From positions 1 to 64,000 of the forward strand of contig JAFCMP010000132.1 in NCBI GenBank assembly GCA_017506865.1: a DNA stretch of 64,000 bases. The letters are read 5' to 3'. The notes beneath the pieces were generated by a model, which ran no database searches, had not been told where the DNA came from, and saw only the letters and a program-made list of their open reading frames with translations. Shown here in pieces: positions 12,955 to 57,200 of this stretch (position 1 is the first letter of the stretch; every line of letters starts with the position of its first letter). A program made the position numbers and the translations under genes. Source of the DNA: Tribonema minus (Eukaryota > Sar > Xanthophyceae > Tribonematales > Tribonemataceae).

Positions 12955-14412
12955 TCACTCGTCGTGTCCCGCACTCCTCATTGCTCGTCGTCGCGCAAGC
13001 GCGTGCTCTGCAAACTCAACTATGACGCCCACATGCGGCATGCTAGCCTCCTGGAACAACTCAGACATGACCTTTCTGACCAACACCCGGTCAGCGCGGC
13101 TCTTGACAGCATAGGCGTCTGCGCCTGCGACCAGAAGCGTCCTGACAACGCCCGCGTGCCCCCCCTGTGCCGCAAGTGGGAGAGATGTGAGATCGTGACC
13201 GTCCTCGCTTCTGGCCGTCAGCTGCCAGGAGGCGTCTTGCTGAAGTAGAGCCTTGACGCAGTCATCCTGGCCAGACTGTGACGCAAGCATCAGCGGAGTA
13301 TGGCCATCGCCGTTACAGGCGTGCAGCTGAACGGAGGCGTCGCGCTGGAGTAGAGCGTTGACGCAGTCGACGTGGCCATTCTCGGAGGCCACCATCAGCG
13401 CGATGTGGTCGTCATAATCTACTGCGGCAAGCTGAATCGAGGCATCTTGCCGAAGCAGCGCCCTGACGCACTCAGTATTGCCTTCGGCGGCGGCATGCAT
13501 CAGCGCTGTTCAGCCGCCGTAGCCGTGGGCGCTGAGCTGCTTGGCGGCATCGTGTTGGAGCAGGGCGTTGACACAGTCGACGCGGCCGATGCTTGCGGCG
13601 ATCATCAGCGCTGTGTTGCCCTCGCTGTCGCAGGCTGTCACCTGTGTGGACGCGTGCTGCTGGAGCAGCGCGTTGATGCACTCGACTCTGTTGCGGCACG
13701 CGGCGTAGATCAGCGCAGTGCGGTCGCCACTGTCACGAGCACGCAGTTGGATCAAGCCGTCGCGCTGGAGCAGCGCGCTGATGCAGACGCTATGGCCGCG
13801 GATTGCGGCATGCATCAGCGCTGTGCGTCCATCACCGTCACGAGCACGCAGCTGAATTGGGGCGTCTTGCTGAAGCAGCGTGTCGATGCAGTCCAACCGG
13901 CCGCTCATGCACGCCAGCATCAGCGCTGTGCAGCCGCTGCCGTTGACAGCAGCCAACTGCATGGAGGCGTGTTGCTGGAGCAGCGTCTTGACACAGTCCA
14001 CGTGGCCGTCACGGCAGGCTAGCATCAGGGCCGAGTTGCCCTCGATGTCGGTGTTCGCCAGATGGAGCGGAAGGAGCGCCTTGATGCAGGCGGCGCCGCC
14101 GGCAAGCACAGCATCGCGCAGGCTGCAGCATCCCAAGAAGCTGGCCGGCGCGGGAGGCGCGCTCTGGTGTTCCACATGAGACGCGTCAGCGCTCGGTATC
14201 ACCGACAAGCACAGCATCGCGCAGGCTGCAGCATCCCAAGAAGCTGGCCGGCGCGGGAGGCGCGCTCTGCTGTTCCAAGTGAGACACGTCAGCGCCTGCA
14301 CGAAGTACATCACACCAGTGGCATACTTAGATGAGCTGAATTGAATTACGTTGTGCAATGAAGCAAGTCTATGTATACAGCGGCATAAACTGGACGTGCT
14401 AGAAAAGGTCAA
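12955..14412 (-). pseudogene. Ankyrin-repeat protein with an in-frame TGA
   Basis: Reading leftwards, 14412-13510 and 13509-12955 are one frame interrupted only by a TGA at 13510-13512. Together they encode about nine ankyrin units of 35 residues with the consensus G-x-G-x-T-A-L-M-x-A-x-x-x-G-x-x-D-C-V-x-A-L-L-Q-Q-D-A-S. Unit 6 begins YGG-stop-TALMHAA where the sister units have Arg, Cys or Asn. The C-terminus ends with a non-repeat segment (AEHALARRRAMRSAGHDE). The N-terminal part is uncertain: a 103 bp duplication at 14103-14295 includes a CAG acceptor, so the true exon may start near 14163 and not at the Met at 14412. Either the gene is a recent pseudogene, the TGA is a sequencing error or is bypassed, or a short intron removes it. 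Ankyrin arrays bind proteins; the partner is unknown. Confidence 0.75.
14103..14295 (-). repeat. 103 bp tandem duplication at the 5' end of the ankyrin exon
   Basis: Starting at 14103 and again at 14206, the same stretch occurs (CAAGCACAGCATCGCGCAGG, then GCGCGGGAGGCGCGCTCTG). Each copy ends at an acceptor-like CCAG or ACAG on the minus strand and continues with GAGACRCGTCAGCGC. This is the same kind of exon-edge duplication seen in the plus-strand genes. Confidence 0.85.
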
Positions 14413-18000: not shown

Positions 18001-21000
18001 AGTGCACTGTGGTGCCTTGGCACAGGCTCTCTTGGTCGAATCCCATCGCGTCTGCGGCGTGCCAGGGCGCTTGATGCGTCCATCGCGTCAGTGACGTTGG
18101 TTGCAGGCGCGCCCATGAAGCGCGTCGCAATCTCCGTCCACGTCGCGCTGGATGTCGCACGCGCTAGCGGACAGTTCGCGTCAGGGTTAAGGCTACGTTT
18201 GCGCTCAGCCTATCCCTGAGCAAGCCCTCCACGGCATTGCCTGAGGCATCGCCCCCCCCCCCCCCCCGCCCCCCCCCTTCGCGCCTGAGGGCAAGCCCTC
18301 CACGACATCGCCTGACGCACACACACACACACCCCCTCGCCCCCCCCCCCCAAGGTCAAGCTGTGGAGCGTCACCAGTGGCTTCTGCTTTGCGACGTTCG
18401 CCGAGCACGAGGCGCCCATCACGGCGGTCGTCTTCGTGCCCGGCGGCGGCGCGATTCTCAGCGCGTCGCTCGACGGCACGGTGCGCGCGCACGACCTCAC
18501 GCGCTACCGCTGCTTCCGCACGCTCGCGACGCCCGCGGCGGCGCAGCTCACGAGCCTCGCCGTAGACCCTGCGGGGGAGGTGGTCGTTGCGGGCGCCGCG
18601 GACCCGTTCGAGCTGTACGTCTGGTCGCTGCAGACGGGCAAGGTGAGTTGATGAGCAAATGTTCTCCTTGCAATACAATTCTGCGGGGGGCGCAGTGAGA
18701 GAGGTGGTGGTCGCGGGCGCGGCGGACCCGCTCGAGCTGTCTGGTCGCTGCAGACGGGCAAGGTGAGAGACTGCACTGTTGCGGCGTCGTCTAGGGCGCG
18801 CTAGAGCGCGTGAGCGCTTGTTTGCACGACGATCTCCAGTACAGCACAAGCATCTGGCGGTGGATGCAGTGTGAAAAGTGGTAGTCGCGAGCGCGGCGGC
18901 CACATTTAAGCTGTACTTCTGGTTGCTGTAGACGGGCAAGGTGAGGAGCGCTGCTGCAGTACTGACTGTATGGCGCTGCCATCATGTATGGCGGGTCAGA
19001 GCTACCGTTGGCGTATTGGGATTCGATGCAAATTCGCAGGGAAGGTGGTTGTGCGCACCGCAGACTGGTTGAACCTGCACGTGTTTGCTGCAGACGGACA
19101 AGATGAGGGGCGCTGCTTCGGCATTGCCGTAGATGTACAAATGTTTGGAATACAATCTGCGTTGGACGAAGTGGTCGCGGGGGCGGCAAATCTGTTTGAG
19201 CTGTACGTCTGGTCGTTGCAGGCGGGCAAGGTGAGGAGCGCTGCCTCGGCGTTGCCGCTGATGTGCAAATGTTCTTTCCTGAAATAGAAGTACAATTCTG
19301 CGGTAGACGCAGTGAGAGTGGCCGCGGCCGCGGGGGGGCGGACTTGTTCGAGCTGCACGTGTGATCGCCGCAGACGGGCAAGTTGAGGAACGCTGCCTTG
19401 GTGATGATGGAGCTGTGCCGTCATTGTGTGAGCCACGTGGGCGCAAGCGCTGCAGCAGCACTAAATGCGCAGCTCCGCCATGGCGAAAGACCTCCCAACA
19501 TCGAGTGAACTGCTGCTGGTGCGGTGCGGTGTCCATCTTGCGCACGTGGCTGAATGTGTCGAGCTCTACAACTGAGCGTATGTCGGACAGCATGTCTAAT
19601 TCTTGCACACATACCTCTGAGCTTCGAGCGCTGTCGCCGCCGCTACAGTTTTGGACGTGTTTGACGGCCACAAAGCGCCGCTCACCGACATCGCGTTCAC
19701 CCCCACGGAGCGTCAGAGCGGTGCAGCGTCTATCTTGCACACATGGCTGAATGCATCCAGCTCTAACAGTGAGCGAATGCGATACCGCGGGTCTATCTCT
19801 TATGCGCATACCTCTAAGCGTCGAGCAATGCCAACTTTATTGCAGGTTCTGGACGTGTTTGGCGGCCACGAGGCGCCGATAGCGGACGTCGCGTTCAGCC
19901 CCACGGAGCCCATCGTCGCCAGCGCGTCGTGGGACGGCACCGTCAAGCTGTGGAACATCTACAAGTCGGAGCTGGTGGAGGTGGGTGGTGCTGCGCGCTC
20001 TTGACCCCCGCCCCCCCCCCGCGGTGCTGTTGAACTTGACGTCGAACTGTCGAGCTCACAGAGGAACATGTGCAAGTCGGAGCTCGTTGAGGTGGGCGTT
20101 GCTGAGCGCTGTTGACCCCATGTTGCTGTTGAAGTTGATGTTGAGGCGCACTCTCTGAGCGCTGTCGCTGTGTGACTGCAACGAGTCAGGGCTCATCGAG
20201 GTGGGTCTGCTGAGCACTGTACTCTCCTGTTGCAATTGACATTTCGAGGCTCGCTGCGAGCACTGCCAACGCGTAACTGCAAGTCGTTGACATGGGCGCG
20301 CTTCCCAGTTGCTCTGCGGGTGCTGCCTGACTTGCCAGGCGGCGGCCACGGCTGTGCGGGCGGCGCTATACCCAATCTTAACTTTCACTCTCGTCAATGG
20401 TGCCAACATGTACGGGACCTGCGTTTTGCGCAACGCGCTGCCGCCGCCAACGCCATGCGCTCGCGCGCATGCGCCGCGCGCCGCCACCTGCAGCCTAACT
20501 TGGACTCTGTCTCTAATCTAAATCCTACTGCAGACGCTGGAGATGCCCGCGGACGTGCTGGCCGTGGCCTTCAGGCCCGACGGCAAGCAGGTGTGCTGCG
20601 CCTGCCTCAACGGCACGCTTCAGGTGAGCTGGCACATTAACCCTAACCCTAATTTAGCCCTAACCGTGACCTAACCGTGACTCGAACCCCCAAGTAAACT
20701 TGAATGAACGCAGCGCGGTCTCATCACGATGACCTCGTTGCTTCAATGGCACGCGTCAGCTAGCACGGTGTCGGATCCCACTGCGAGGCCATTGTCTGTT
20801 GCGCTGCACAATGGGGCACGCGGGGGATGATGAGCTAGACCTCACAAGCAGGTGTGCTGCGCCTTCCTTGATGGCACAATTCAGGTGAGCCAGCACGGGA
20901 TCAAAGAATTGGGTGGTCCCATCGTGGCTGCTCGTTCCCCGTGCTGCACTTATGGCATGTAGCATGTGTCCAGCTTGAAGAGTGCGTGGCTTAAGTTGCT

Positions 21001-24000: not shown

Positions 24001-27000
24001 GCTTTGCTACTGCATCATGAAAAAAGCACGGTGCCCTCGGCATGCAGCGGCGGCTCCCTGCAGCATCCCGGACGTGCGCGCACCGTCGCCACACGCGCCG
24101 CAAACTAAAAAGCACAATACAGATTTATCATTGCGGCATGCACACAGCCCGCCCACATTCTGACCGCATGCCTGAACGCGCGGCCGCGCTGCTGCTTCCG
24201 CTGCCGCGCGCAGACCAAGGAGGCGGTGCGCACGACGTGCGTGCGCTTCAGCCCCACGGGCCAGGAGTGGGCGGCGGCGACGCCGCACGGCGTGCTGCTG
24301 TTTGCGCTCGACGACGTGACGGCGTTCACGCCCACGGACCTGGATGAGGACGCGACGCCCGCCGCCGCCAGGGCCGCCATCGCGCGCCGCGACTGGGCGC
24401 GCGCGATACTCATGGCGCTCACGCTGGGTGAGTGAGGGTCTGAATTGCACGCGCGTTTTACATTGCTACTTCAGTCTGTATGTACGTGTTTTTGTGCATC
24501 ACGCGTGCACGCCGCCATCGCGCGCCGCGACTGGGCGCGCGCGATACTCGTGGCGCTCACGCTCGGTGAGGGTTCGACTTGCGCACGAATGTTGCATCGA
24601 TGCTTCAGTCAGTACATGTAAATCCGCAGGCACGCGTGCCTGCGTATGTAATGTATGATGAATTGCGTTCACGTGCCAGGGCCGCCATCGCGCGCCACGA
24701 CTGGGCGCGCGCAATCCTGATGGCACTCACGCTCGGTGAGGGTTCGAGTTGCGCACGAATGTTGCATCGATGCGTCAGTCAGTATTTGTAAACCTGTATG
24801 CACGCGTGCACGCATGTATATGCATCGTGTGTACATGCCAAGGTCGCCGACTGGGCGCGCGGGATAGTGATGGCGCTCACGCTGGGTGAGGCTTCGCATT
24901 ACACACTGATTGCAATCTCGCATGCACATGCATGCATGTACCCAAGGGCTGCGGTCAGCCGCTGCAACTCGGGACGCTGACGGCGCTCACGCTGGGTGAG
25001 GGTCCGCATCGCGCTTGCTCGCAGCCTCATTTCCAAGCACATGCGTGCATGCGAGGCATGTGTACATGACGCACACAGGCGTGCATGCGCGTGCATCCGT
25101 ATGCTACATCCACACACGTGTATGAACAAACCCCGCAAGCAGCCGGGTACTCAGCCTGCCCCCGAGCACCTCTTGATCATCGGCACTGGGTCCCTGACTG
25201 TGGCATCAGCAACATCATCCCTGGAAGGCTTGGGTTGTCGTCCGGTTCACAAGCGCGCTGTCGCGAGCGTCACCATTACCTGCATTCGAGACGCTCCCGT
25301 TGACATTGGCATTTCTCATGCGCTGTGACAGGGGAGGCGCCGCTGCTGGCGGAGGCCGTGGACGCGGTGCCGCCCGACGAGGTAAGAACCTCAACAGAAT
25401 CTTCGACTTCAAGTATGACTTCAAATTTCAGCTGGGTAGTCAGTAATGACGTGTACATGATGTGACATGTAGGGATACCCCTGCACCACTGCATGCTGGC
25501 GCGGCAAGCTTCTGAAGCAGTTTATGGACGCTGTCTGCTGCTACGGAGAGCAGCAGCGACGTCAAAGTTGAAGTTTTCCATGCGGCCCGCGTATACTCCT
25601 CTTGAGTTTTCAGGTTATGAGAGCACTAACACTTTCTTTTGCTGCGTGTGCAGGCGCCACTCGCCATCCGCGCGAAGTACTCAGAACGCGCAGCTTATTT
25701 GTAGGACCGATGACGTATCCATCGCGCGGTTATCCCATCGCGTGCTGCCGTCCGCGCAGGCCATCCATTTGTGCATGACGCCTCACGGCACAGCTCGCTT
25801 ATATACCCTACACGTCACCAACACATAACCGTTATGAGAGTCCACACTTGATTATCATTCAACTGTACTGCTTACTTGAAGTATTGGAACTCGAACTTCA
25901 TTGTGCACGCCGCGCGCAGGTGCGCTGGTCGCGCAGGCCATCCCCGCTGCGTGCGCAGGTGCCGCCAGTACCACAGGCCGCCCCCGCGCACGCGCCAAAG
26001 CGCAGCTTGTTCACAGACTCTCAAGAGTCATTGACTCGTAATCATCAAGTATCGCCCCTTTGATGCGCTCGCAGGTGCCGCTGGTCGCGCAGGCCATCCC
26101 CGCGCGCCTCGCGTCGCGGCACCGTTCGGTCACATACCCTACAGGTCACCGAAACGCAACCAGCATGCGCCCCTGAGTCCACACATTTGAAACTACTGTT
26201 CGGCTGTACATCTTAATTGACTGGAAGTTGAATCTTCACTGTGCACGCCGCGCAGGTGCCGCTGGTCGCGCAGGCCATCCCCGCGGGCCTCGCGTCGCGG
26301 CTGCTGGCGCAGGGCACCCCCACGCACGCTCCGAAGCGCAGCTTGTGTTCAGAAAACACATCACCACTGAGCACACAAAGCCGCTGACTTGACCATCATG
26401 TGTCGCCCCCTCCCGCTGCATGTGCAGGTGCCGCTGCCATCTGCGCATGTGCAGGCCATCCGTCCGCGCATGACCATGGCACAGCTTGTTCACAACCCTC
26501 TACAGAGTCACCAATGCGTAACCGCCATGTGCCCCCATCTTCAGAGCCTGAGAGTCGTCCACAGGTTTTCGGCTGTACTTCTTACTTCACGTACTGCATA
26601 TTGAACTTCATCGTCCACTGCGCGCGCAGGTACCGCTGGTCGCGCAGGCCATCCCCGCGGGCCTCGCGTCGCGCCTGCTGGCAGCGCTGGCGCGGCGTCT
26701 CGAGGCGGCGCGCGCGCTGGAGTACCACCTGTGCTGGGTGCGCGCGCTGCTGCGCGCGCACGGGCCGCGCCTGCGCGCCGAGGCCGGGCGGGACGTTGGC
26801 GCGCGCGGCGCGCTGCGCGCCGTGCACAAGGTACATGCGCATGTATGGTGCCCATATACTATAGAAGTATACACATACCGTGTATATAAACGTATTTTAT
26901 ATATATGTGGTGCCCATATATAGTATACATGTACCGTGTATATATGCGCCTTGTATGTATAGGTGTGCGAGGCCGGGCGGGACGCCGGCGCGCGCGGCGC

Positions 27001-28075
27001 GCTGCGCGCCGTGCACAAGGTACGTACGTGCGCATGTACGGCCGCCCACATGTACCAAATCTTTTCCAAGACGGGACAAGTGTGCCTCACGGCTGGGCAA
27101 CCCCATGCAGGGTTTGGTTGTGGGATGTTGGTGGTAGTCTCAAGAGGGAGGAGCCTGTTTGCGTTTGAGTCTCACTGCGGGGAGGGAGTGCTGCTGCATT
27201 GAGTGCATTCCGAGATGAGTGGGCTTTTTGTGCCCCATTGGCAAGCGAAATCCGTCAGAGTACATGTGTGTATGTACGTATGCATGTATGCATGTGGATA
27301 GAAGCAGGTGCGTGGGCGTACGTACAGCAGGCCCGTTTTTGGGCGTGCACGCGGCGGGTGCGAGCGTGCCGTGCACAAGGTACCCTAGCCCTAAGCCCGC
27401 ACTGCATGTGATTTCACGTGCTTTGCAACACTCAGATTTTCTGTCGCACATTCTCAGCCTGCCGTGCAATGTTGCGCTTGCAGTGTAGGCGTGCCTGGGT
27501 GACGACACCCAATAGGGTACTAATGATGCTTGTATACAACACCAATGACACGGAACGTATATGACATATGCGCATAGGCACGCTGCTGCGCGGAAGACGC
27601 GCTTTGCACGCGTGTCTCTGTGTAGACCGGAACCACGAGGTCGCATGCGCTGGGTGCGAGCGCTGCTCTGCTATGGCAATGTGTCTCGGGTGCACGCTGC
27701 CCGTGCTGCCAGGCAGCAGCGCTCCACAATACTCGAGCCCCGCACGCATATGCATTGCGCAGCATGCGCCAACACATACACACGCACTCGCGGCATGAAC
27801 CGTGCGTCTGCGTTTTCCTGCAGGCGATCACCAATCATGAGCGCGATCTCTTCAAGCTGGCACGGCAGAACCAGTATACACTGCAGTTTGTGGCCATGGA
27901 ACCACCGGCGGCGGCGGCGGCGGCGACGATGATGGCAGAAGCTGCGGAGCCCGCTAAACTGCAGCAGCACGCAGATGTTGATGCGATGATTGTTAGCGAG
28001 GCTGCAGTGCAGGCTGATGATGGCGCCATGGAGGTCAATGCGGTGCTGTACACGGGCAAGCACAAACGGCGGTAG
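15082..28075 (+). CDS. PWP2: PWP2/UTP1, WD40 component of the small-subunit processome (14 exons, 911 aa)
   Basis: Exons: 15082-15624, 15950-16162, 16463-16711, 17391-17495, 18355-18642, 19846-19980, 20534-20623, 21538-21621, 22313-22456, 23259-23426, 24214-24427, 25332-25381, 26630-26830, 27824-28075 (TAG). They total 2736 bp with all phases consistent; known PWP2 proteins are about 920 aa. The start MRFGYRLSRLLG matches the family start M-K-F-x-Y-R-F-S-N-L-L-G, which fixes the ATG. WD40 blades fill residues 1-617, with typical phrases such as VVGFNLGVFGLYEMPG, GEWLAFGSGRTGQLLVWEW and ASASWDGTVKLWN. The PWP2 C-terminal helical region follows (FSPTGQEWAAATPHGVLLF near 687, then RLEAARALEYHLCW, then LFKLARQNQYTLQFVA). 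PWP2 is part of the UTP-B complex that binds the 5' external spacer and U3 snoRNP in the nucleolus during 18S rRNA maturation. The gene is about 13 kb mainly because its introns carry repeated exon-edge copies. Confidence 0.95.
17640..17720 (+). repeat. Copy of the PWP2 exon 4 donor edge
   Basis: The stretch near 17658-17708 repeats the end of exon 4 (AGCGCTGTGTGCCCACGG, then GGATGGCAAGGTATGTACGC), about 200 bp after the real donor at 17496. It keeps an AAG/GTATGT donor. Confidence 0.7.
18643..19390 (+). repeat. Donor-side array of PWP2 exon 5 edge
   Basis: After the real donor at 18643, five diverged copies of the exon end recur (GAGGTGGTCG, GCGGACCCG, GAGCTGTACGTCTGGTCG, CAGACGGGCAAG/GTGAG). 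Their donor positions are near 18763, 18941, 19103, 19231 and 19383. Four of the five keep AAGGTGAG or a one-base variant; the copy near 19103 reads AAGATGAG. Downstream phrases (GAGCGCTGC, TGCAAATGTTC) repeat as well, so the unit includes the start of the intron. Confidence 0.9.
19640..19735 (+). repeat. Acceptor-side copy of PWP2 exon 6
   Basis: TTTTGGACGTGTTTGACGGC after an ACAG acceptor near 19649 repeats the start of exon 6 (19846). It continues in parallel through CCCCACGGAG before diverging. The preceding intron sequence (GCACACATACCTCTGAGCTTC) is also repeated near 19805. Confidence 0.85.
20060..20215 (+). repeat. Donor-side copies of PWP2 exon 6
   Basis: CAAGTCGGAGCTCGTTGAG/GTGGGCGTT near 20073 and a weaker CAGGGCTCATCGAG/GTGGGTC near 20186 repeat the end of exon 6 and its GTGGGT donor (19981). 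The following GAGCGCTGTTGACC and GAAGTTGATGTTGA phrases are repeated too. Exon 6 therefore has copies on both flanks. Confidence 0.85.
20637..20684. repeat. Interstitial telomere-type tract in PWP2 intron 7
   Basis: CCCTAACCCTAA, then degenerate CCCTAACCGTGAC units, begin 14 bases after the exon 7 donor at 20624. The unit is TTAGGG on the opposite strand. Confidence 0.75.
20846..20900 (+). repeat. Copy of PWP2 exon 7 donor edge
   Basis: AAGCAGGTGTGCTGCGCCTT and GGCACAATTCAG/GTGAGCCAGCAC repeat the end of exon 7 and its donor, about 260 bp downstream of the real donor at 20624. Confidence 0.85.
22500..22610 (+). repeat. Copy of PWP2 exon 9 donor edge
   Basis: GCCACGTGTGCCTTTGCGCA through GCTCCAG/GTTCGTCACTTCAA near 22520-22598 repeats the last third of exon 9 and its donor context (GTGCGTCACTTCAACTTC at 22457), spaced by about 130 bp. 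An in-frame TAG in the copy shows it is not used as coding. Confidence 0.85.
24428..25010 (+). repeat. Donor-side array of PWP2 exon 11 edge (four copies)
   Basis: The exon end CGCGACTGGGCGCGCGCGAT...GGCGCTCACGCTGG and its GTGAG donor are repeated, with donor positions near 24565, 24736, 24886 and 24996. The real donor is 24428. Copies 1 and 2 share long downstream phrases (GTTGCATCGATGC, CAGTCAGTA), so the unit includes about 90 bp of intron. Copies 3 and 4 are shorter. Confidence 0.95.
25640..26629 (+). repeat. Acceptor-side array of PWP2 exon 13 (at least five copies)
   Basis: The exon 13 start GTACCGCTGGTCGCGCAGGC, with its GCAG acceptor and the preceding intron (ACTTGAAGT, ATTGAACTTCATTGTGCACG), is copied at about 25652 (decayed), 25920, 26075, 26255 and 26428. 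The real exon starts at 26630. The copy at 26255 is the best preserved, matching through GGCCTCGCGTCGCGGCTGCT. Confidence 0.95.
26960..27390 (+). repeat. Donor-side copies of PWP2 exon 13
   Basis: GAGGCCGGGCGGGACGCCGG through GCCGTGCACAAG/GTACGTACG (donor near 27021) is almost identical to the end of exon 13 (donor 26831). A weaker copy ending CGTGCCGTGCACAAG/GTACCC lies near 27380. Exon 13 is flanked by copies on both sides. Confidence 0.95.
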
Positions 28076-40265: not shown

Positions 40266-43200
40266 CTAGAGGTCCAGCAGCAGGCGCGACGGGTCCTCGA
40301 TCTTGTTGGCGACGCTCTTGAGGAACGTCACCGCCTCCCGCCCGTCCACCATGCGGTGGTCGTACGTCAGCGCCAGGTACATCATCGGGCGCGCCACGAC
40401 CTGGCCGTCGACCTGCGCGCGCGCACAACGAGGCGGCGATTCAAATTAGCGCTAGGTTTTCGAGTGACTCAAGCACACAAGAAGTTCAAGTTGCTGGGGG
40501 TGGCGCTTGCCAACATCGCCCTCTCGACTGCTGGTCGTGTCAGCGCCGATGGGTGCGCAGCGGGCGCATCATGGACTGGCCGGGGGCTTGTGCACATGCA
40601 TGCGCATGGCAGTTCGGAAATAGACACATTCAGATGTCAACCTCACAATGACGGAGCGCATATTGGTGGCATGCAGTGCATGCTGCAAGAAAAGTTTTAA
40701 AAAGCAAACCTCAAGCCTTTGGAGGAACCTCAGCATTGAACCACACGCGCGCACTCACCACGACGGCGCGCATCTTGGTGGCGTGCATGCCGAGGATGGC
40801 GCTCTGCGGCGGGTTGATGATGGGCGTGCCCATGAGCGAGCCAAACACGCCGCCGTTGGAGATGGTGAAGCTGCCGCCCGCCATGTCCTCCAGCGCGAGC
40901 TTGCCCGCCTTGGCCTTGACTGCGTAGTCCGCGATCGCCTTCTCAATATCCGCAAAGCTCATGTCCTCGACGTTGCGCAGGACGGGGACCACCAGGCCTG
41001 CGGTGTGTGGATGAGCGACGGAGGCGGAGGATTGAGATTCGTCGTAGTCAAGAAAGAGTTGTGTTCGCAAAGCTCATGTCCTCCTCGTTGCGCGCAGGAC
41101 GGGGACCACCAGTGTAGTCAAATAGTAAGCACATGTACGCATAGGGTCACGTCCCCCACGTTGCGCAGCACAGGGGCCACCAGCCCGGCATTGTGTGGAT
41201 GAGCAATGAGCGCGGACGTTGACACTTGTGTAGTCACAGAATGAGCACATGTATGCTTAGGTCTGCGTTGCGCAGCACGGGGACCACCACCAGGCCTGCG
41301 TCTTGTGGGATGACGATGGCTATAAGAAAAAAAGAAAAGGAAGAGGAGGTTGTGACTGCAACATGGATCGTGCACACGGCATGTAGCCACTGTACATGGG
41401 TGGTGTGAGGAGTGTGTCGAAGGTGTAGGAGTGGAGGTGTATGGGGGTGTGGAGGTAGGAGTGGAGGTGGGTAGGAGTGGTTGGGTACCCCCATAAGGGG
41501 GTTGCACATCAAATCCGGCGGTAGTGCAAGACCGGTGACATGCGCGATGGGACGACGCAAGCGTCGTGATCCATCTGGTGTGTAAACATTCGTGTGAAAA
41601 GTTGGTGGACAATGTCCACCATATCAGTTTTCACACTGATAAGAACAGATACTACACTTGATCATAGCCAAAAGGCACGGTGATCGTATGATCCAGAGTA
41701 CATGTATGCGCACAGGGTGGGACCAAAAGCAAAACCACTCGCAAAACAAGAGCCAGTTAGTTGAACTTTGACGCTACTTCAACTTTTTTTTTTTCCCTTT
41801 TCCCCAAACTTTTTTTTCCGTGATTCCCTCACTCTCCTGAAACCAGAGCTTTAATTCTTTTTTTTGTGTGGTGTTTGTCTTGTCAACTGCTTTCATCGCC
41901 TGATTCCCTCACGCTCAAAGCCAGACCCTCGCTCAGAGCTCACAACAGAATTCAACCAGGTACTGTATCATTTCAGTCTAGGCCCAGTCAGGAGTGAGGC
42001 AGACCTGTGAGCCAGCTTGCTTTGTGGGTGAGGGACGTAGCATATGTGCGCAAGGTGCTCCGCACTCTACTGCGTCGCGCCTCACACAACACTTGGTGGT
42101 CATCTAGATGATCTAGGCTGCCTGAAAACTCCAATACCAACTTCAACGCCCATTGCCCCAGAACCCTGAAAAACGTGTGCCACACGCACACCTCGCGTGC
42201 ACCCACGTGCAGCAAAGCCGCCGCAGCGCTTGCGCAGTTGCGCAATCTGCTTAATCGCTACGTTGCGGCTGCTTTTTTCAAACATGTACGTGCAAGAACA
42301 AGTGTTCGAGCTGCTCCACCTTGCGTCGTGAAGCGGCGTGCTCGCGTTGCCCATCATTGGCACGGCGTACCGCGCACGCACCGTAATACACCAAGCGTGC
42401 GTGTTGCACGCTTTTACGCGCAAGTGCATGCGCGGCAGGCACCCACCTCCATGATAGTGCGCTTCTCAACACGCGAGGCCACCATGATGTCACAAGTACT
42501 GCAAGGGAAATATTTACGAGCGTGTACGTGCACCCTGAGCGAGCATTAACAAAAAGTATGTGCACCTTCAACGCGCCTCTTGCATGGCCCTGTAGGGTTG
42601 GGGAGGTAACAACCTACTTTACGCGCTGCACGCGTGCATGCGCCGCTCACCCTGCGCCTCTCATGTGGCTCTGTAGGGTCAAGGTCAAGGTGAAACCCTA
42701 CAGTACTAAAAAAAAGGACGCGCTGCATGCATGCATGCATGCGCCCCTCACCCTGCGGCGACGCGACCGCCACGCTGATGTCGACGTAGTTACGGTGCAC
42801 AATCTCCTTGGCCGCCTCGTCGATGTAGCCGTTCACGGCGGGGATCTCGCGCAGCGCGTCCGCCGACGCCTTGACGAACGCGCTCATGAACCCGAGCTGC
42901 GGGCGGGGGCGCGCATACGGTATGTATGTTCGTGCAAAGATGCGCGTGTCAGCAGCTGACGTCGGCAGCACAGTGTGACGCGACACTTCAAGTATCGACA
43001 TCTTCACATATTGGGGGCGCAGGCGTCAGGGGATCTCGCGCAGCGCGACCGCTGACGCCTTGACGAACGCGCTCATGAACCCGAGCTGCGGCGGGGGGGC
43101 ATACGCGGTATGTACTCGCAGAGATGATGCGCGTAAGTAGATGACGTCGGTAGCGCCGTGTGAGACAACACTGTGAGTATTGACAACTTCGCATATGGGG

Positions 43201-46200
43201 GACGCATTCAGTATCCACGCGCCGATATGCGCGTGTCAGCGGCTGACGTCGGCAGCTCCGTGTGGCTCGACGTTTAAAAAGTATCGACAACTTCAAAAGA
43301 AGTATGGGGCGTCGCAGACTGTGCCGGCAGTTTGCGAGCGCGCTATCGCTGTAGCTGCCTGGTGTCAAGGTGTGTCACAAATGGGTCATCGTCGCAATGC
43401 GGTCATAAACCCGGTGTCAGACTGCAGCAAATAATCCTCTGCAGGGTCGACGATGCCTGTATCTGCGTTGACAAATGGCTCCCCGTGCAACGTGACTTTC
43501 CCTTGAGGCAAATTACTGGCAATGCAGGAGGGCTTAACCAGCACCTTGTGCATGGGAGCAGCTAGACTACAGCATATGCATGTAAGTGATGCTTGTGTCT
43601 TGTACGTGCTACATCAGTGTACGGCAAATGCATGCAACGCTTTTATGCTACATCAGTGCACAGATTCTGCAGCCTGTGGTGTCTGTTTGTTGTAGATGCT
43701 TCTGTGTTGGAGTACCCAGAATCTATGTCAACAAGAGTTGGCATGATGCTCCCTTTTTAATGTCCTGCTGATCGATGCCAAAGCTACAGCTGGCATATTG
43801 CGAGCGATTCTACGTACGCCTTGAAAGCGAATAGAGGTTCCGCATTCACCTGGAGTGCACGTGTATACGCATGCAACATAGCGTGCGTACTCATTTGTTG
43901 CCCTATTTTATCGACGCGGATGTCATCATGATGCAGGCGAATGATGCAAAGCGGTTGCTCCACTTCAACATTACCTTCAAAGCGGCCACTTTTCAGGGTC
44001 ACCGAGGATCGCCTGAGACAGGAATGCATGCAGCACTTCTCCTTTCTGTGGTCTCCTGGCTCCATCGCACCGTTTCATACGGTTGCTACAGCGTCAGGTA
44101 AGCAGCGTTTGTATCGACGCTATCTTTGCTCGCATTCTCGCCTCCGCGCTGGCCAGCAGCACAGCGCGAGTTGTCACATCACCCCCTTTGCTCGTAAACC
44201 GCACACGCCACCCCTTCCCAGCGCAACTTCAAATCACTACTTCGACATGTCCTGACAGCAGCTGCTCTTCGGGATCCCCCACTATGGCGGCCCGATAGCG
44301 CAGCGGCTGGTCCACCCGGGGGAACTCGCCACCCCCTACAGCAGTGCTCGGCTCACCTTGACGCCGTGCTTCTTCTCGAACTCCTCCTTGTACTTGCCGC
44401 GCAGCGCCATGAGGCGGCTCATGTCCATCTCCTGGAACGTGGTCAGCATCGCCGCCGTGTTCTGCGCCGACTTGAGGCGCTCCGCGATGCGCTGCCGCAT
44501 GCGCGTCATCTTGATGCGCGTCTCCGTCCTGGCAGAGCGGCGGCAGCAGCACGCAGGCGTGTGAGACGTCGCCGTGCTGTTGAAGTTCAGCGTTGTGCGC
44601 CGCTGAAGTTCACACTCACGCAGTAATGATTGAGCAATGATGCAATTTCCAGGCGACGTGAGGAGCTGCGCGATGCGATACGCGTCTCAATCCTGGCGGA
44701 GCGCCAGCGGCAGCAGCGCTCAGGCACGTGAGGGATCGCCGTGCTGTTGAAGTTCACTGGTGAAGTTCAATGTTGAGGTAATGGCAAATTATCAAGCGAC
44801 GTGAGGCGGTCCGCACTCCGCGATCTGCCGCATGCGCGTCATCTTGATGCGCGTCTCTGACCTGGCGGAGCCGCAGCGGCAGCAGCGCTCAGGCGCGTGG
44901 GAGGCCGCTGCGATGTTGATGAAGTTCAATGTTGAAGTAAAAATGAAAATTTCAGGCGACTCAGGGCGCTCCGCAATGCGCTGCCGAATGCACGTCATCT
45001 TGAAGAGCGTCTCCGTCCTGGAGCAGAGCAGCAGCGCTCAAGGCTGTGTGTGTGTGCGTAGTGGCCCTCGCATACTGTTTAAGTTTGCTGGGGGTTCTGT
45101 GATGTGTCTTGTTGTGACGCTCTTGAACTCCAAGGTTTCGAAGCACGTCACGAGGGCATCTCATGCCTGTCTACGTCCCAGAAGAGCAGCGACGCCGCGT
45201 CACACGCGAGGGGTCACTCTGTTGAAGTTCACTGTTGAGGTATTCCACAATCGTGTTGCGCATTGCTTTGTAAAGTGTGCGCGACAGCAGCGCAATAATT
45301 GCAAAAGGATCTCTTGAAAGGCGTAAGCAGTAACAAATGACCAGCCCAAAACAGGCCGTGAGGGCCCAAGTCTTGCAGCCATAAGGTGAAGCCTTGGCAC
45401 CCAGTGCAGGTGCGTACACATGATGGGCACAGGCAGCGCTTGATCTATGCTGCACATAGTCCATGTGTGAAACTGCTGTGTATCACTGCGATTGTGCTCA
45501 ATTGGCACTGGCCATCACCCACTGTTTAAAACACACTACAACTAACGTTACTTTCTGCTACAGGATGTAGTTAATGACTAGGGTTGCTGTCAAGGCAGGT
45601 GCACCAGCGGAGCATTCCCCGGTGGCACAACAGTCGGACCTGAACTCGTCGATGTCGAGAGTCACCTGGGCTGTCAGCGCTCACAATAACAAACTGTGTG
45701 CGCGCCATGTCTGCAGTATGAGCATGACACCACGCACGCTTGCAAATGAAGCGCTCCAAATCACTCATGCATGCGGACAGTGTCACCCTATCAATCTACT
45801 TCATCATGCGCTCATTGAATGACGGCTGTATTCAGCGATTTTGTGCTAGCGACATACACCTCTAAGTGCCTCTGCGCACCAATGGCACGCGACCCTTGCG
45901 CATACCTCCTACCACTGTCCGCACACTCCATCAGCACACCACAAAGACGCCCGGCAGCAGCAAACGCGTCAGCACACATCAGCGCCAGCTCTGCCGTCAC
46001 ACTCACCAACCGCCATCGCACCCCATCGCGCCGACGTAGCAGCCCTAACCGCACCTGTCGACAGTCTGCGCGGCCTGTATGGGTGGCAGCGACACCTTCT
46101 GCTCCGGCGCCAGCGCCACAGAGACGCCCGCCAGCATCAACCACGTCTTTACCAGCCCTGCCATCACACTCACCGACAACCACCGCACCACATTGCACCC

Positions 46201-48275: not shown

Positions 48276-51200
48276 ATGGCGACCACCACGGCCCCAGCTG
48301 GCGATGGGTTCTTCCTCACCCAGAATGGATTGCGCACGGTCGGCGGAGGGACGATCGGTATGGAGGAGCTGCAGGAGATGGTGGCAGGCAAGCGATCTGT
48401 AGCATTACAGACGCGCGAGCACTGCGAGGCCTGTGCAACATAGAAATTGCATTCTCGTGGAACATCTTCCTATGCAATATGCAATTTGCATTCTAGTACC
48501 AGAGCTTTGTGTCGAAGGATTGGTCCTCATGATTCCTTTCGCTGGAAAAATAACAGGCGATAGCTCACAGAACTGACAGGCTGGACACATTTCAGTCTGT
48601 TGCATCGGCCAGAGCTTCTAGCATGATGAAAAGCCTTCTGGTGAAGATCGAGTGCTACTCGTCTTCCATTGATCTTGCGGGTGATCTGCGCTGCAAGACG
48701 TCCACTTGCTTCAACTGCAGTGCCACACAGCGCCTTGACTACTTGTTGTGAGCCTGAATGCCTGCACAGTGAGGTATCTGAGAGACATGCTGCCATTTCA
48801 TGCGTGTTCTCAAACGGCACTGCATTCCTAGTTCCAACTCGCACAATGTTGCCAGATGCCCAGAGTAGTAGCGGCGTGCTCCTGCAGCACACACGCAGGT
48901 GCTGCTACTGCAGCCTTTCCACCTGACATGAAGCACGTGAGTGGCATGAATATCGCCATGCCATTGCGCATGCTATGCTATACGCAATGGCATGCTATGC
49001 TATACGCACACAAACTATAAATGTCGGCATCAATTATCTGTAGGCTTGACAATGTTGCTTGAGGATTTGCGGTGATATTCGCAAGTGTGACGTAAAGAAT
49101 GAACCACGTACAAAAGTGTCCGCGCTCGTCGAGGTCTGTCGTCACGCACACGCCCTATTCACGTGTGCTCACCGCCACCCCAGGCATGGAGCAGACGGAC
49201 AGCCAGAGCACGCGGCTCCTCAAAAAGAAGCGCGAGATGCGGGAGGTGGACGACGCCATGGAGCTCATGAAGGAGCAGTACAGGCAAGCTATTATAGCGA
49301 TTGATGAAAAACACTACTTAGGTACAATAAGTACAAGTGGTGTTGGTCTTCAGGCATCAGTCTCTGCCTGTTGCTCCCTCATGTGCTGCGCTGGGGTATT
49401 GACAAGCTCACCAACTGCTGAGGCTGCTGGCGCATTTGAGGCGTTGGCGCTCCGCTGCTGCTGCTGTCACTGCATGCGCAGTGTAGGGTTAGGATAAGGG
49501 TTAGGGTTAGGGTCAGGGTTAGCACCTCGAGGGCGGGGCGCACGGACGTACTCCTATGCTGCAGATGCCGTCTACCTGCGCGTTAAACAGAGCACGTCAT
49601 CGGCGATGTAGATCTGCCGGCGCTGCGCTGGGCCGCCATCAATCCATGCCCACCGCACGCCATGGATTTGTATGGCCGCGCCGCCCGGTGCCAACGCGGC
49701 GCGCGTTTGGTGCATCGGGCGGACGACGGCTGCTGCCGTCAGCGCGTGCCCGCGTCGCAGCGTGCGCCGCGCTGCACACTGAAAGCGAGCGCAGCACTGC
49801 AGGTGACGGCGACGGGGCTGGCGCGTGCGATTGCGGTGCGTGCCGCGGTCGAAATCGGCGCGGCGGCGCGGCATCGGTGACGGGCAGGCTACGTACCCAC
49901 CGCACATGGCGCTGCGGCATACGTGCCCCCTGCGATTGCGTCGGAACTGCTGGATCCAACACGGCTCGTGAGCACACTTGCAGGGCTGGCTCGTGATTGC
50001 GCGCGATCATCATGATGCCGCGCGGCACCTTGCGCGCTGAGATCGGGAGTTGTAGCCCGTGCGCGGTCAACGCACGGAGCACTGCCGCCTGAGCACTGCC
50101 GCCTGAGCCCACAACGGCTGCTGGTCACGCCAACTTTTATGCAGAGCACGCATGCTCGCTCGATGCTGTGCGTGGTCCACTCATGCGCTGCCGCTGGACA
50201 CCTCGCGCACGCCAACGCTGCTGTTGAGCGCTGCGGAGGATGGTGAGCCACGGGGGTTGCGCTCTGGGGCGCGGCGGCTGGCATGGTGGTGTTGCAGCGG
50301 GAGGAGCTTGGCTACGCTTGCAAGACATTAACGGGCCTGTTGCCTCGAGGCCACATTCAGTCTCAGCTGGAGGGCTCGAGAGACCCTGCGTCACTCAGCT
50401 TGTGTGCCAACTCCAAACACTGAAGTCGGGGACCGAGCGCTGCCTGCCTAACTGCAACCTCAACTTCAACCCCTGCAAATCTGCGCCGCAGGCAGCGCAT
50501 GGAGCGCTGCGACCTGCGGCAGCGCGAGTTTGAGGCCAAGCAGCTGGAGATGAAGGAGCAGGTGCAGCGCTTTGAGAAGTTCATACAGGAGAACGACGCC
50601 AAGCGCGCGCGCGCGGAGGCCAAGGCCAAGCAGGTGCGGCAGCAGCGCTCAGAGGTTGAGAGGCTTTTACCACAGAAGCGAATGGCTGCAGCGTCGTTGT
50701 AGTGTTCTACTTCATGGCATCTGTGATGCGCGCATGTCGGAGACTGGCGCGGCCGCACGCTGCGAGCGCGAGCACAGCAGTCACGCGCCACCGCATGGCG
50801 TGTTCCTGTGTTTCAGATGTGCTCTGTGGGCTGAACTGAAGAGCGTTGCATGCTGCGAAGCTGGATCCACCATCGTGCAGCGGTCGCATGCAACATCAGT
50901 GACAAACTGCGGCCAAACCTCAAACATCAATGCCCCAACTTCAACATCTCAGGAGCGCCGCGCGCTGGAGCAACGCGAGGCGGAGCTCAAGCGCCTGTCC
51001 GAGGAACTTTCCTCCGCGCTTTCCGAGGAAGCCGCGCTGAAGGACCGGCGCCTGCGCCTGCGCCGCTACCAGGCGTACCTCGGCGCCGCCGTCGCCGCCA
51101 GTGAGCAGGGCTTCGACGAGATTGGCGACCTGCTCAACAGGTGCGTCACCTGGCAATGCTGAAGTTGAAATTGAAGTTGAAGTTGCAATGCTTGTATGGC

Positions 51201-54200
51201 GCGCTGCTCGTACGGCGGCCGTGCCGCTGCACGGCATGTGTTGTGGGGCACTTCGGTAGAGCGATCTGCTCAGCAGGCGCGTCACCTGGCACTGTTGCAG
51301 TGTTGTACGCATCCGAATGGCGTGCGCTCGGAGGGCGGCCGTGCAGCTGCACAGCGTGCGTTGTGGGGCAGTTGCACTATTGGTGCTTCAAAGCCCTCAC
51401 GCGTTGCGAACCGAGACCGGCGGCGGCATGTGCACCGGTGCATTCTTTGATGCCCGCAGGGTGAAGCCAGCTTGGATGGCACACAAAAGACATTTGAACT
51501 TCTTGAGCATGCTGCCTGCACCTGCCGGCTTCCCGCACAGTTTCAGCTTCCGCTGCACGGCGCCCGACACGGTTTTGAGCGCCCACCTGCACTGGTGCTT
51601 TACGCTTTCGCACATTAATTGGTGGAGAGATCCTTCGGCCCTTGACAATTTTGAGCGATGCTGCAGGTCGGCACATTGCGCGGCGCCAACACGGACCTGG
51701 GCACACAGCTGCTGTAGAGGCGCTTGATGCTCTCGCCCATTGCGCGCCGAGACATTAGCAGCAGCGCTTGCGTCGATACATGCATCCTTCGGCACCTCAC
51801 CATTCTGAGCACTGCTGCAGGTTCGGCACGCTGCGCGGCGCCAACACGGGCCTGGACGCACAGTTGTTGCACAGGCATTCTATGCTTTCGTGCGTTGCGC
51901 ACCAAGACATTAGCAGCAGCACGCGCGTCAATATACGCACGCCCTTCAGCACTTCACACCTTGTTGAACAGTGCTGCAGGTTGGGCACGCTGCGCGGCGC
52001 CAACACGGACCTGGGCGTGCAGCTACTCCAAGGGCGTCTCACGCTATAACTGGCGGCCTGCGCACCAATATGCACATCTTTCAGCACTTCACCTTTATGA
52101 GCGCTGCTGTGCGTCCCACCAGGTTCGGCACATTGCGCGGCGCCAACACGGACCTGGGCACACAGCTGCTGTAGAGGCGCTTGATGCTCTCGCGCATTGT
52201 GCGCTGAGACATGAGCCGCAGCACACGCTCCGATACCTGCATCCTTCAGCACTTCAACACCTCACCATTCTGAGCAATGCTACAGGCTCGGCACGCTGCG
52301 CGGCGCTAACACGGACCTCGCTGTCGACATGCGCACCAATATGCACATCCTTCGGCGCCTCACCATTCTGAGCAATGCTGCACCTCCCACCAGGTTTGGC
52401 ACGCTGCGCGGCGCCAACACATACCTCGGCGCACAGCTGTCGTAGAGGCGCTTGACGCTGTCGCGTGTCACCGACCAAACACCGGCGGCGGCATGCGCAC
52501 CGATACACACCGCTCCTTCAGCACTTCACACCTGTTTGAGCGCTGCTGTGCGTCCCACCAGGTTCGGCACATTGCGCGGCGCCAACACGGACCTGAGCGC
52601 ACAGCTGCCCCAAGGGCATCTCACGCTCTCGCGTGGTGCCAACCAAACCCCGGCGGCTTGTGCACCAATATACACCGTGGCGCGTCCTTCGGCACCTCAC
52701 CATTCTGAGCACTGCTGCAGGTTCGGCACGCTGCGCGGCGCCAACACGGACCTGGGCGCGCGCTGCGCGCGCGGCGAGGGCGAGATGGAGCGGCGGCGCG
52801 CGGAGGCGCTGGCGCTGCGCCAAGACGCGCAGAACGCGCTGCTCGTGCACAACTCGGCGCTCAACGAGCGGCAGCGCGAGCTGGAGGGCGCGCGCGAGGG
52901 CGTCAAGGTGCGCGCGCACTGCACAATTAACAATGATTTGTGCAACAGCGCGCTCGTGCGCTGCAGGCGTCGTGGTGTTCGGACGGCTCCTCGCCGCGTC
53001 ACGTCGTTGCGCGATTCGTCGTTGCGTGATTTTCGAGTCGCACGAGTTGACTGGACTTGAGAGCCGGAGGGGGCGCGCGAGGGCGTCGAGGTGCGCGCGC
53101 ACAGATCGAGATTGAGAGTGAGATTGATTTCATGCATGACTTTCAAGAGGAGCGTGCGCCTGTCATTGAGTGGTCGCAGCTCAACGGGCCTGCGGCATTC
53201 CGGCACGGATCGTTGTAAACCTACCCCTAGGAATGCGTGTGCACGCGGGCGACGGCGCGCTTGCGCACTGCAGATGCCGTGCCTCTCGGACCGCTCCTTG
53301 CTGTCTCAAATCATTACGTGTTTATCGAGGCCGCACGACTCGACTCGACTCGAGAGCTGGAGGGCGCGCCAGGGCGTCAAGGCACGCGAAGCGGCGGCGG
53401 CGGCAGTGCAGTGTCAAGCGCGCGTTCGCGGTCGTGCGTGGGCTTGCATTCTTTCTTCCATAGTCCTTGCAGTATGCAAGTTCTACAATGTATGACTGCG
53501 GCGTTGTGAATGAGGGGCAGGGTAGTAAGATCCGCACGGCGGCGGTCTGTGTAGAGGTGTGCGCGGCGGCGTATGCCCTAGCACGGCCGTGTACGTGCGT
53601 ACACTTCACCTACGTCTGTGTTCAGCTGCGGTGTTGCGAGCGATGGCCTCCGTCCGCGTTGTACCAGTGGCACCGCTGATGGAGTCGTGTGCTTCGCGTC
53701 AATGGCGGCGGAAGTTGAGCCGTTTTATGGCTCGTTGCGCAATGCCGTTGAAGTACACATCGCAGCTGCGGCGGTCAAGGGCGCGCGGGGCATGAGGCGG
53801 CCGCGCCGATGCGCGCTGCACATAGCTCTATCCGAGTCTTCTTACCTTGCGCGTGGGACGGCGCAGCGGCAGCGGTGTGTGTGCGCTCGACTGCTGCCGT
53901 GCGCTGCGCCGCGCGCGGTCTCAGAGTCTTGCAGCACGGCGCGAGGGGCGGTACGTACGCGTTCGGCATGCGCGGGTCAGCGTTCAGCGGCCGCTGCGCA
54001 GGCGCGAGGGGCGTGCGAGAGGCGCAGCGTGCGAGAGGCGCAGCGGGGCGGCGCGCGGCGGCAGTCCCCACGTGCTGCTGCGCGCGACTTCACGCCGCCG
54101 CTTGACGCCTGTGACGACGCGAGCGCTGCGCGACGGCTGGGCATGCGCCGCATGGAGCTATAATGCAAGCGCTGCTGCGTGATTGGTGTGTACGCGATTG

Positions 54201-57200
54201 CAGCGATGGCGGCCTGAGAATGCGCTTTGAGGTTGCAGCACTGCTTGCTTCTCGACGGTGCTCTGCGACAACTACGGCACTGGCTCATGCGCGCAATTCT
54301 CCCGCGCATGCGTCCCCCCGCCCTCGTGCGTGCCCCCCTTCGCAGCACGCCATGGAGAAGAGCGAGAGCGAGGCGGAGCGCGTCAAGGGCATAGCCAGGT
54401 GAGCTACCTACTGGCAAAGAGTAATTAATACCTACCCCTCACCCTCGCGCGGCGCAGCGCACCATGCGCTACCTGGGGTAAAGGGTATGTCATGCCTACC
54501 CCTCACCTAGGGTAAAGGGTATTCAACATCTACCCCTAACCCCAGGTATATTAGGTCGGTCTCAGCAAACCCTACGCACCGTAGGCACGGCAGGCCATAG
54601 GCGCGTGCTGTGCTGACTTCCCGTTCACTGAACCCCAATTCTAAGTAGTACTTGACTGTAACATCGGACCGCGCTGAGCATTGTCACGCGGTTTCGTACA
54701 AGGTGATGAGCCGCAAAGCGTTGCAGTATGCGCCTACTTTTATTAGACTGCTTCCCTCCATTTACCTTCGGTTGCGCTGCATCGCCTGAGTCTCTGCTGC
54801 TTGATTTAGAACCGCCAGATATGGGGAGCCTCAACGCATGGCGGACGATGGTGTTGGGGCTGGTCACAGTTTTGGGGAAAGGTTAGGGGGTAGAGTTAGG
54901 ATTGGTAGGGCTTCGCATGATTGCAAGGCATGTACCTGTTAGGTAGGCATAAACAGTATATAAATGCAAGGGCGGGGACATGAACAGGGCCTGCCAGTGC
55001 ACACAGCCGTCTTCAATGATGCATTGTGGAATGCCATAGTTGGAGTTGGGCCCGTGCGCTGCACGTTTTGAGAGTCTCGCTTCGGTAGCCGCCGCAGGAG
55101 AGAGGAACAAGGTTGACAGATACGCTCGGTTCTATGTCATACATACGGTATATACGTATACCGCCCTGAGAGGCCAGTACGTACGCAATAGACGTAAACT
55201 TCAACTTTAACTTCACATCTAACTCCATGTTGAACTTCCTCCTTCATTGTGCCGCGGTGCGTGGGGGCTGTGTGCGGCTGCCGAGCAAATGGTTTTGCTT
55301 GTCGAGCACGAGCAGCGCGCTTCATGTCGTTTATAAATGCTCAATGCAGGCATTGTACCACCATGTGTGCTCTGTATCCCAGCTGCGCTGCCTTGCTGCT
55401 GCTTGCCTGCACCGGTCCGTATATTCGTCCTGGCGGGATTCATACGTACGCTCATACGGTATATACGGTTCATACGGCGTAGGCCGTATATATCAACCCT
55501 GGAGAGGAATGGCGGATGCCACTTGCTGGATTGTTCAGTAGCGCACCCCTGCGCGGTTGAAGTAGCAGTTGGTGCAGCGAGAAGTTCAAAAATTTGAGCG
55601 TTGCAGGCTTGTCAAACTGCTCGGTTGAAGCAGCAGCTGGTGCAGCCAGAAGTTCAGCAATCTGAGCGTTGCAGGCTTTTCAAACCACGCTCTTCGAATT
55701 TGCTCATGTGCTGACCGCCATCCAGGCTGCGATCAGCGGTGGTCATGACGCGCGCGCACCAGCGCGTGCTGTGCGGTACAATGTGATTGTTCTTCACATG
55801 TTGCACATTATATGGTGTCCACGTGCCCAGCAGACACTATGTGGTCTGGTGCGGTACAGAAGATGCCACGCTGCATGAGGCGCTGTAGTGCAGCACTGGC
55901 ACCAATGGTCAGAGCCAGTGGCAGCGCAGCTGGAACCAGGATGGTCACAGCGCGTGCTTTGCGGTACAATGTGATTGTTCTTCACATGTTGCACATCATC
56001 AGCCGACATGACAGCCAACAACGTTGCGTTGATGACACCGCCGTGCACTCGCGCGCGCCGCTGTTCACTCGCCCCGTCGCAGAGAGGGGGGGCAGCTCGT
56101 TGCGGCCGTGCGGAATCTGTACACGCGTTGCAAACAGGTACGCCGCGTGCCATGGGACGCATGTTTCCGTCCCGGCTCTGCAGCACCCAGTGTATTCATT
56201 TGGGCTCGGGGTTGAAATCACAAATGTGGCGTGCTGCATGCACTCCAATGACATGCTGTATAAAGCCCTGCCGGCGTCGCCCTCGTGCCTGAGGTGCACA
56301 CGCACTCAGAGCTCCGACACAAAGGCCGCGCAGACTTTATCACACGCTACACATGCGCCATAGCTGCTGCTTTCCATCCCTACGTTTTCCTACCGAAGCT
56401 GCATATTCGAAGTTCTTCGAGTTCGATGTCATGAATGCTGACATTGCATTTGGATCAGAGAAAGCACCTCAGAGGCAACAACGTCAGCATCTTGCTTGAC
56501 GCTGCACAAGCGACTTTCAATGACCTCTCCCCCCCCCCCCCCCCTGCTCCCCCCCCCCCCCCCCCCGCGCTCTGCTGCATGTTGCAGACGATGAGAAATC
56601 CCCTGCCGGATGCCGCAGACCGGCGCGAGGACGACAGGCTCGCGCAGCTCGCGCGGTACCTCAGCTTCATCGGCGACCGCATAGAGGACCTGGCGGAAGT
56701 AGAGGTGCGCTGCCGCAATCCCGTGCTTGAGCAACATTGTTGAAGTTTTACTTGAAGTTGACAAGCCCCCCAAATGCTGAAGCTGAGGGCGCAATTATTG
56801 TGCAAACACGTATTTAAAATTTTAGATTTTAAATTGAAAAAAAAAAACAACGCTTCCGCCACCCTTCCCCACGCCAGCGCGCCTAGCGCAATGAGAGCGC
56901 CACTGACCACAGTGGTCGGTCCTCGCCTCCTATGAAAAAATTGGCGCGTCGCACGCAGCGCTGTTGAGCACTGGGTGCTGACTGCTGGCGGCAGTGTGCT
57001 GGCACGCGTGGAATCGGTGCCTGACACCTGGCGTTCTGCGCAGGGGGCGACGCACTCATGCCCCCCTCCTCTGCAGCCGTGCACTGCAGACTGCCTGAGC
57101 AGTGCGCACGCCACAGACCGATTGAGCCCAAAAACTGCGAGGACCTACATTGCGGTTCATGACTAAGCAGCGGTAGGGGCGCATGGTTGCGCTGCGATCA

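Follow-up and report, generated by a model that had tools for sequence, protein, structure and literature searches.

Existing introns in the Tribonema minus DNA examined here have probably been lengthened by the serial tandem duplication of 100–200-bp segments that straddle splice junctions. The copied exon edges lying within the introns are referred to below as ghosts. An array of such ghosts was located in intron 4 of the CFAP73 gene in the window (the whole 64,000-nt stretch of DNA that was analysed), and further ghosts were found in other genes of the window and of a genome sample.

The array upstream of CFAP73 exon 5

The host gene was recognized as CFAP73 by a match to PDB chain 8glv_AV (E = 2.5e-23), and its protein also matches the Pfam family DUF4200 (1e-23). 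The named relatives of this protein are mostly ochrophytes, which also provide the best named matches. Protein homology placed exon 4 at 50953..51140 and the real exon 5, 187 bp in length, at 52721..52907, both on the plus strand. Exon 4 ends in AACAG|GTGCGT, and the acceptor of the real exon 5 reads CAG|GTTCGGCAC..., with the exon beginning at 52721. The protein segment corresponding to the exon 5 region is single-copy in all seven aligned relatives.

According to the preliminary description of this DNA, seven ghosts precede the real exon 5, and all of them were confirmed. Their exon parts occupy, on the plus strand, positions 51667..51710 (g1), 51821..51865 (g2), 51980..52024 (g3), 52123..52167 (g4), 52286..52318 (g5, a short unit from which part of the spacer is absent), 52394..52438 (g6), and 52562..52606 (g7); an eighth, decayed copy of the acceptor unit was added by a profile search of the window (51493..51616, plus strand, E = 1.3e-6). 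The successive spacings, the last being that between g7 and the real exon, are 154, 159, 143, 163, 108, 168, and 159 bp, five of the seven lying within the 153–168 bp previously given for most of the array. The tandem unit, in which AGGT is present, consists of approximately 110 bp of intron and 44 bp of exon across the existing acceptor. Duplication of the whole exon with both splice sites was not found, the exon-matching part of the acceptor ghosts being 33–46 aligned bases, i.e., at most 46 of the 187 bp of exon 5.

Over the first 34–35 exon bases, the ghosts differ from the real exon 5 by one to four mismatches, and g1 additionally lacks one base. In g2, all 36 upstream bases are the same as those at the real site, and one of the 35 exon bases is different. 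BLAST comparison within the array gave E-values down to 6e-56. Divergence between the units amounts to 9–36% in the spacer and 0–20% in the exon part, so that the exon parts are more alike (exon/spacer divergence ratio 0.41, CI 0.19–0.69). Copies comprising more than one unit are also present (51664-51853 versus 52120-52318, 87% identity), which indicates that duplication inside arrays occurs as well. The proposal that duplication lengthens an existing intron in this case is supported.

Donor edges of the same gene were copied in a similar manner. Sequence alignment on the plus strand revealed a donor-edge ghost of exon 4 at 51261..51301, with its donor GT changed to GC, and two donor-edge ghosts of exon 5, one at 53061..53102 with GT retained and one at 53351..53388 with GT changed to GC. 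Both sides of exon 5 therefore carry ghosts, and each ghost is located in the intron adjoining its source edge. The donor of CFAP73 exon 2 (window position 49283) is CAG|GCAAGC, so that the following intron is of the GC-AG type, in a gene supported by homology. Inside the contig, at window positions 49484-49522 and 6840-6866, there are short telomere-like TAGGGT / CCTAAC arrays.

Ghosts in other genes and in the genome sample

The pattern had been described for at least four genes in the window. This held for three homology-backed genes, namely, CFAP73, the WD40/Utp12 gene, and the 2-oxoacid dehydrogenase E2 gene; at the fourth locus, the exon at 10124-10297 has ghosts, but the Pfam matches of that locus were below the cut-off. 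On the plus strand, the WD40 gene carries donor ghosts of the exon ending at 18642, together with a copy of the acceptor edge of the next exon (18544..19909), and the WD40/Utp12 gene carries donor ghosts of the exon ending at 24427 (24367..25051), acceptor ghosts of the exon starting at 26630 (25721..26682), and a donor ghost of the exon ending at 26830 (26779..27051). On the minus strand, the dehydrogenase E2 gene contains an acceptor ghost with approximately 60 bp of exon (42840..43351) and three acceptor ghosts of the exon at 44357-44528 (44468..45241). A protein considered as that of a close relative carrying ghosts (P0078) was rejected on reading, being a dehydrogenase E2 protein of another organism with an internal repeat. 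Repeats of another kind occur at 13133-14295 of the window, where a predicted minus-strand gene contains repeated coding units of approximately 103–105 bp, ankyrin-like by eye; these form a coding repeat, with no ghosts.

The same scan, suggested earlier for the whole genome, was applied to a sample consisting of the window and 23 stretches of ten kb each (294 kb in 24 sequences) taken at arbitrary positions, except for L020, which was chosen for a match to the CFAP73 query. Outside the homology-backed genes, gene models were provided by a self-trained HMM that was trained on this sample and seeded with CFAP73 exons 2–5, and its recovery of CFAP73 exons 4 and 5 is thus not independent. Later CFAP73 exons were placed by an early HMM at 56083-56137 and 56588-56704; the final HMM dropped the former and shortened the latter, and both were corrected by hand. 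A Pfam comparison of ten protein models gave a match exceeding the family cut-off for nine; the exception was the rubredoxin-like model. Several ghosts were called exons by the HMM, and 22% of the donors in its models are GC, a high share that is taken to be largely HMM noise.

A gapped search of this sample, with three stretches containing coding or low-complexity repeats left out (L015, L016, and L019, which were also left out of the pair, age, and AG/GT counts), detected at least one ghost at 41 of 320 predicted junctions, including four at HMM exons that are considered spurious or ghosts themselves (18754, 26075, 26256, and 55726). Junction-straddling duplication is accordingly frequent, with a detectable ghost at approximately one in eight to nine predicted junctions of the sample once the four doubtful exons are allowed for. 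A very young case was seen at L006 (minus strand, exon at 3574), where a junction in a gene encoding an NAD-binding domain is present in two copies; these agree at 63 of 64 bases in the exon and 47 of 48 in the intron, and no microhomology was seen by eye at the breakpoints.

Close copies were concentrated at exon edges. Using 24-mers with up to three mismatches within 2.5 kb, low-complexity 24-mers being left out, copies were found for 24 of 316 exon edges versus 16 of 1101 exon-interior windows (p = 2e-7) when L015 was excluded, a stretch that was dropped from this test after its coding repeats had been seen. The corresponding values were 29 of 331 versus 56 of 1194 (p = 0.0045) with L015 included and 13 of 236 versus 12 of 848 (p = 7.5e-4) with both L015 and the window excluded, and the inverted-copy control, excluding L015, yielded two edges and two interior windows. 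The direction of copying followed the type of edge: excluding L015, acceptor-edge copies lay upstream in 22 cases and downstream in 4, donor-edge copies lay downstream in all 16 cases and upstream in none, and exon-interior copies were divided equally (9 upstream and 9 downstream).

Decay, age, and possible function of the ghosts

The exon parts of the ghosts decay much as expected of neutral copies whose parent exon is constrained. In 31 pairs, at 20 junctions, that include a long stretch of intron, the number of exon-side differences expected from intron divergence was 165.4 if a neutral ghost stands beside a constrained exon and 263.9 if ghost and exon are both neutral, and 157 were observed. 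In these pairs, nonsynonymous differences were below the model (77 versus 98.5 expected) and synonymous differences above it (80 versus 66.9); exon-side differences were below expectation in three pairs and above it in one, and local gene conversion is possible in such outliers. A pN/pS value of approximately 0.5 is expected for a freely drifting ghost beside a constrained parent exon, and the value obtained was 0.50 (0.40–0.63) for 69 pairs at 38 junctions, these being the 69 of 256 alignments that passed the filters, one of which required that AG, GT, or GC be kept in the ghost. A cleaned set of 60 pairs at 34 junctions, omitting the HMM-exon ghosts 26075 and 26256, L021, and one L025 pair, gave 0.43 (0.36–0.51), or 0.43 (0.36–0.53) after correction for the intron mutation spectrum. 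Exon-side gaps were seen in 22 of these 60 pairs, and in 18 of the 22 the gap total is not a multiple of three. No purifying selection on the coding part of the copies was found in this pooled sample, which is broader than CFAP73 alone; as coding sequence, the ghosts look dead. Recent gene conversion is possible for one minus-strand ghost of L022, the ghost at −205 of the exon at 3270: its intron part differs at 24 of 117 bases, whereas its exon part, though gapped, shows no substitution in any aligned column.

Divergence also tended to increase with distance from the live junction. The nearest ghost was less diverged than the farthest at 13 of the 14 junctions that had at least two usable ghosts (p = 0.0018), and comparisons of adjacent ghosts showed a rise with distance in 20 of 28 cases and a fall in 8; ghosts 26075 and 26256, one L021 junction, and all of L025 were omitted from this test. 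Younger nearest ghosts would follow from the live junction serving as the template for every new copy. A steady age gradient was sought in the CFAP73 array itself and was not found (rho = −0.18).

It is improbable that the ghosts are functional sites kept by selection, i.e., alternative acceptors, decoys, or recursive-splicing stations. An acceptor in every CFAP73 unit had been reported, and CAG| is indeed intact in all seven ghosts; in the sample, AG is kept in 35 of 38 acceptor ghosts (39 of 41 in a laxer count), whereas GT is kept in just 13 of 25 donor ghosts (21 of 31 in the laxer count). This asymmetry might reflect selection against ghost donors and not against ghost acceptors, as an exploratory reading of few and linked junctions. 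AG|GT, which each recursive-splicing station would carry, is present at six of the seven CFAP73 ghosts (g5 has AG|GC); in the sample, GT follows AG at 7 of 22 ghost-bearing acceptors compared with 21 of 182 acceptors overall, at least three of the seven coming from one array, and AG|GT is absent at the other 15 of 22. The sole CFAP73 ghost whose use would leave the reading frame open is g7, which would insert 159 nt in frame; when exon 4 was joined to g1–g6 and read to the real donor, a stop codon was encountered in all six cases. The higher similarity of the exon parts in the CFAP73 array, which could be read as selection on them, needs no function because the ghosts decay as neutral copies of a constrained exon, and selection was rejected as the source of the 0.41 ratio, which copying from a constrained parent explains. 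The pooled divergence and the gap totals likewise speak against function. Since the ghost exon sequence fits neutral decay and six of the seven CFAP73 ghosts lead to a stop, the kept acceptors are not evidence of use. The g2 acceptor, identical to the real site upstream, also has the same score as the acceptor of the real exon 5, so the site alone can hardly tell the spliceosome which acceptor to use; the real one would presumably be picked via pairing with the downstream donor, i.e., by exon definition.

Origin of the arrays and comparison with known systems

Two further explanations bear on the nature of the repeats. An origin of the arrays as copies of a dispersed transposon or introner lying beside exons by chance is highly improbable. 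A match of the repeats to a transposon away from the exon, named earlier as a finding that would refute the serial-copy reading, was looked for in the 158-Mb genome with the CFAP73 array, its spacer, and the WD40/Utp12 and dehydrogenase E2 arrays, and no convincing copy outside the respective gene was detected in this search, which skips very common words and could be escaped by a highly repeated element. Two weak C528 matches to the CFAP73 query (E = 3.4e-7 and 3.3e-4) were obtained and cover mostly exon 5 sequence. The CFAP73 spacer matched the genome in intron 4 alone, one match extending 5 bp into exon 5, and every array bears exon sequence of its own gene. An assembly artefact can be regarded as equally remote: the CFAP73 units differ from one another to the extent given above, unlike duplicated reads, and like arrays were found at many loci on several contigs.

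Targeting of the duplication to splice junctions, for example, by breaks that arise close to exon edges co-transcriptionally or in connection with chromatin, as opposed to uniform placement, is a refinement of serial duplication, not an exclusive rival, and it is rather doubtful at present. For the array-placement tests, ten HMM exons regarded as false or as ghosts were removed, the CFAP73 exons were added by homology, and the WD40 and Utp12 models were treated as one gene. In nine homology-backed genes, the exon edge was included in 20 of 23 intronic arrays versus 19–21% under uniform placement, and with exons masked, 12 of 19 arrays still reached an exon edge versus 23% expected (p = 1.9e-4). 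Most arrays of these counts, however, are in the window, and for the six homology-backed genes that lie elsewhere, the count with exons masked (2 of 8) is at chance level, though the unmasked one is 6 of 8; the rigid-shift test on all predicted genes gave 38 of 55 compared with 28.9 of 55 expected, and a uniform simulation with shorter introns yields a fraction of 0.47–0.48. Uniform breakpoints would give longer exon parts than those of the 41 nearest ghosts (mean relative length 0.31, KS p = 2.6e-6, parts of more than 100 bp being invisible), but short exon parts could also reflect selection against long ghost exon parts. A lineage process that is aimed at junctions and copies approximately 45 bp of exon with approximately 100 bp of intron, serially laying down exon edges, can thus be put forward only tentatively.

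Transposons, or slippage within the intron, are the usual explanation for intron lengthening. The serial duplication favoured here would act repeatedly and in tandem, at the DNA level, on short segments spanning an exon–intron junction, the median unit being 140 bp in the 23 arrays of the nine homology-backed genes. Each duplication would leave the outer junction copy in use, i.e., the last acceptor or the first donor, and would turn the other copy into intron, with the result of a dead exon edge with its splice site (the ghost), a longer intron, and an unchanged protein. The extra copy would be tolerated because splicing removes the duplicated segment, and we infer that splicing skips the ghosts. 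New ghosts, copied from the live constrained junction, would push older ones outward, and arrays would tend to be layered by age. For the observed copies, with their direction, near-neutral decay, and age trend, the probable cause is DNA-level duplication by unequal exchange, slippage, or break repair. The exon-interior copies (16 of 1101 windows, excluding L015) count against this scheme.

Arrays of diverged tandem units are familiar in introns as minisatellites; unlike these, the present units include an exon edge, and their age can be compared with the live exon. In tandem exon duplication, including that of mutually exclusive exons, exon sequence is duplicated in tandem within the gene, whereas here the exon edge with one splice site alone was copied, and the ghosts decay approximately neutrally. 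The tandem duplication of an AGGT-containing segment is the model of intron gain that we take to be that of Rogers, the topic of a review cited below. Its relevance, suggested in the preliminary description, lies in the shared duplication step, and it does not extend to a new intron of the Rogers type. The Rogers geometry, in which the intron start resembles the downstream exon and the intron end the upstream exon, was met with in 1 of 214 predicted introns and in none after inspection: the single candidate, L025 9283-9452, proved on reading the sequence to be a misread donor ghost. In CFAP73, moreover, the AGGT-bearing unit is not exonic, as that model has it, and spans intron and exon.

The origin of new introns by tandem duplication is reviewed in PMC3443670; in the part of that review drawn on here, a gene segment with splice-site sequence is likewise tandemly duplicated and one copy handed to the spliceosome as an intron, but the segment is exonic and the new intron arises between the copies, whereas in the present case a junction is straddled and an old intron grows repeatedly. 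Novel intron positions in Drosophila have been ascribed to tandem duplication or sliding (PMC2891723). As far as the consulted portion of that paper goes, local tandem duplication within a gene supplies a second set of splice signals there too, but it is coding sequence that is duplicated, an intron position being created or shifted, and no serial array of exon-edge ghosts is mentioned. Among the titles and abstract openings of the matches listed from the open-licence literature, there was no description of serial exon-edge ghosts lengthening introns, and an earlier description is possible.

If a process aimed at junctions were confirmed, introns would grow from splice sites and would keep a layered fossil record of the neighbouring exon. 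Annotations of such genomes may hold false protein repeats, since several ghosts were read as exons by the HMM. A ghost beside its constrained parent is a near-neutral copy and allows within-genome estimates of the neutral rate and of constraint. Each array is, in addition, a natural experiment in which the spliceosome must choose one of up to eight near-identical acceptors, and it thereby provides a test of exon definition.
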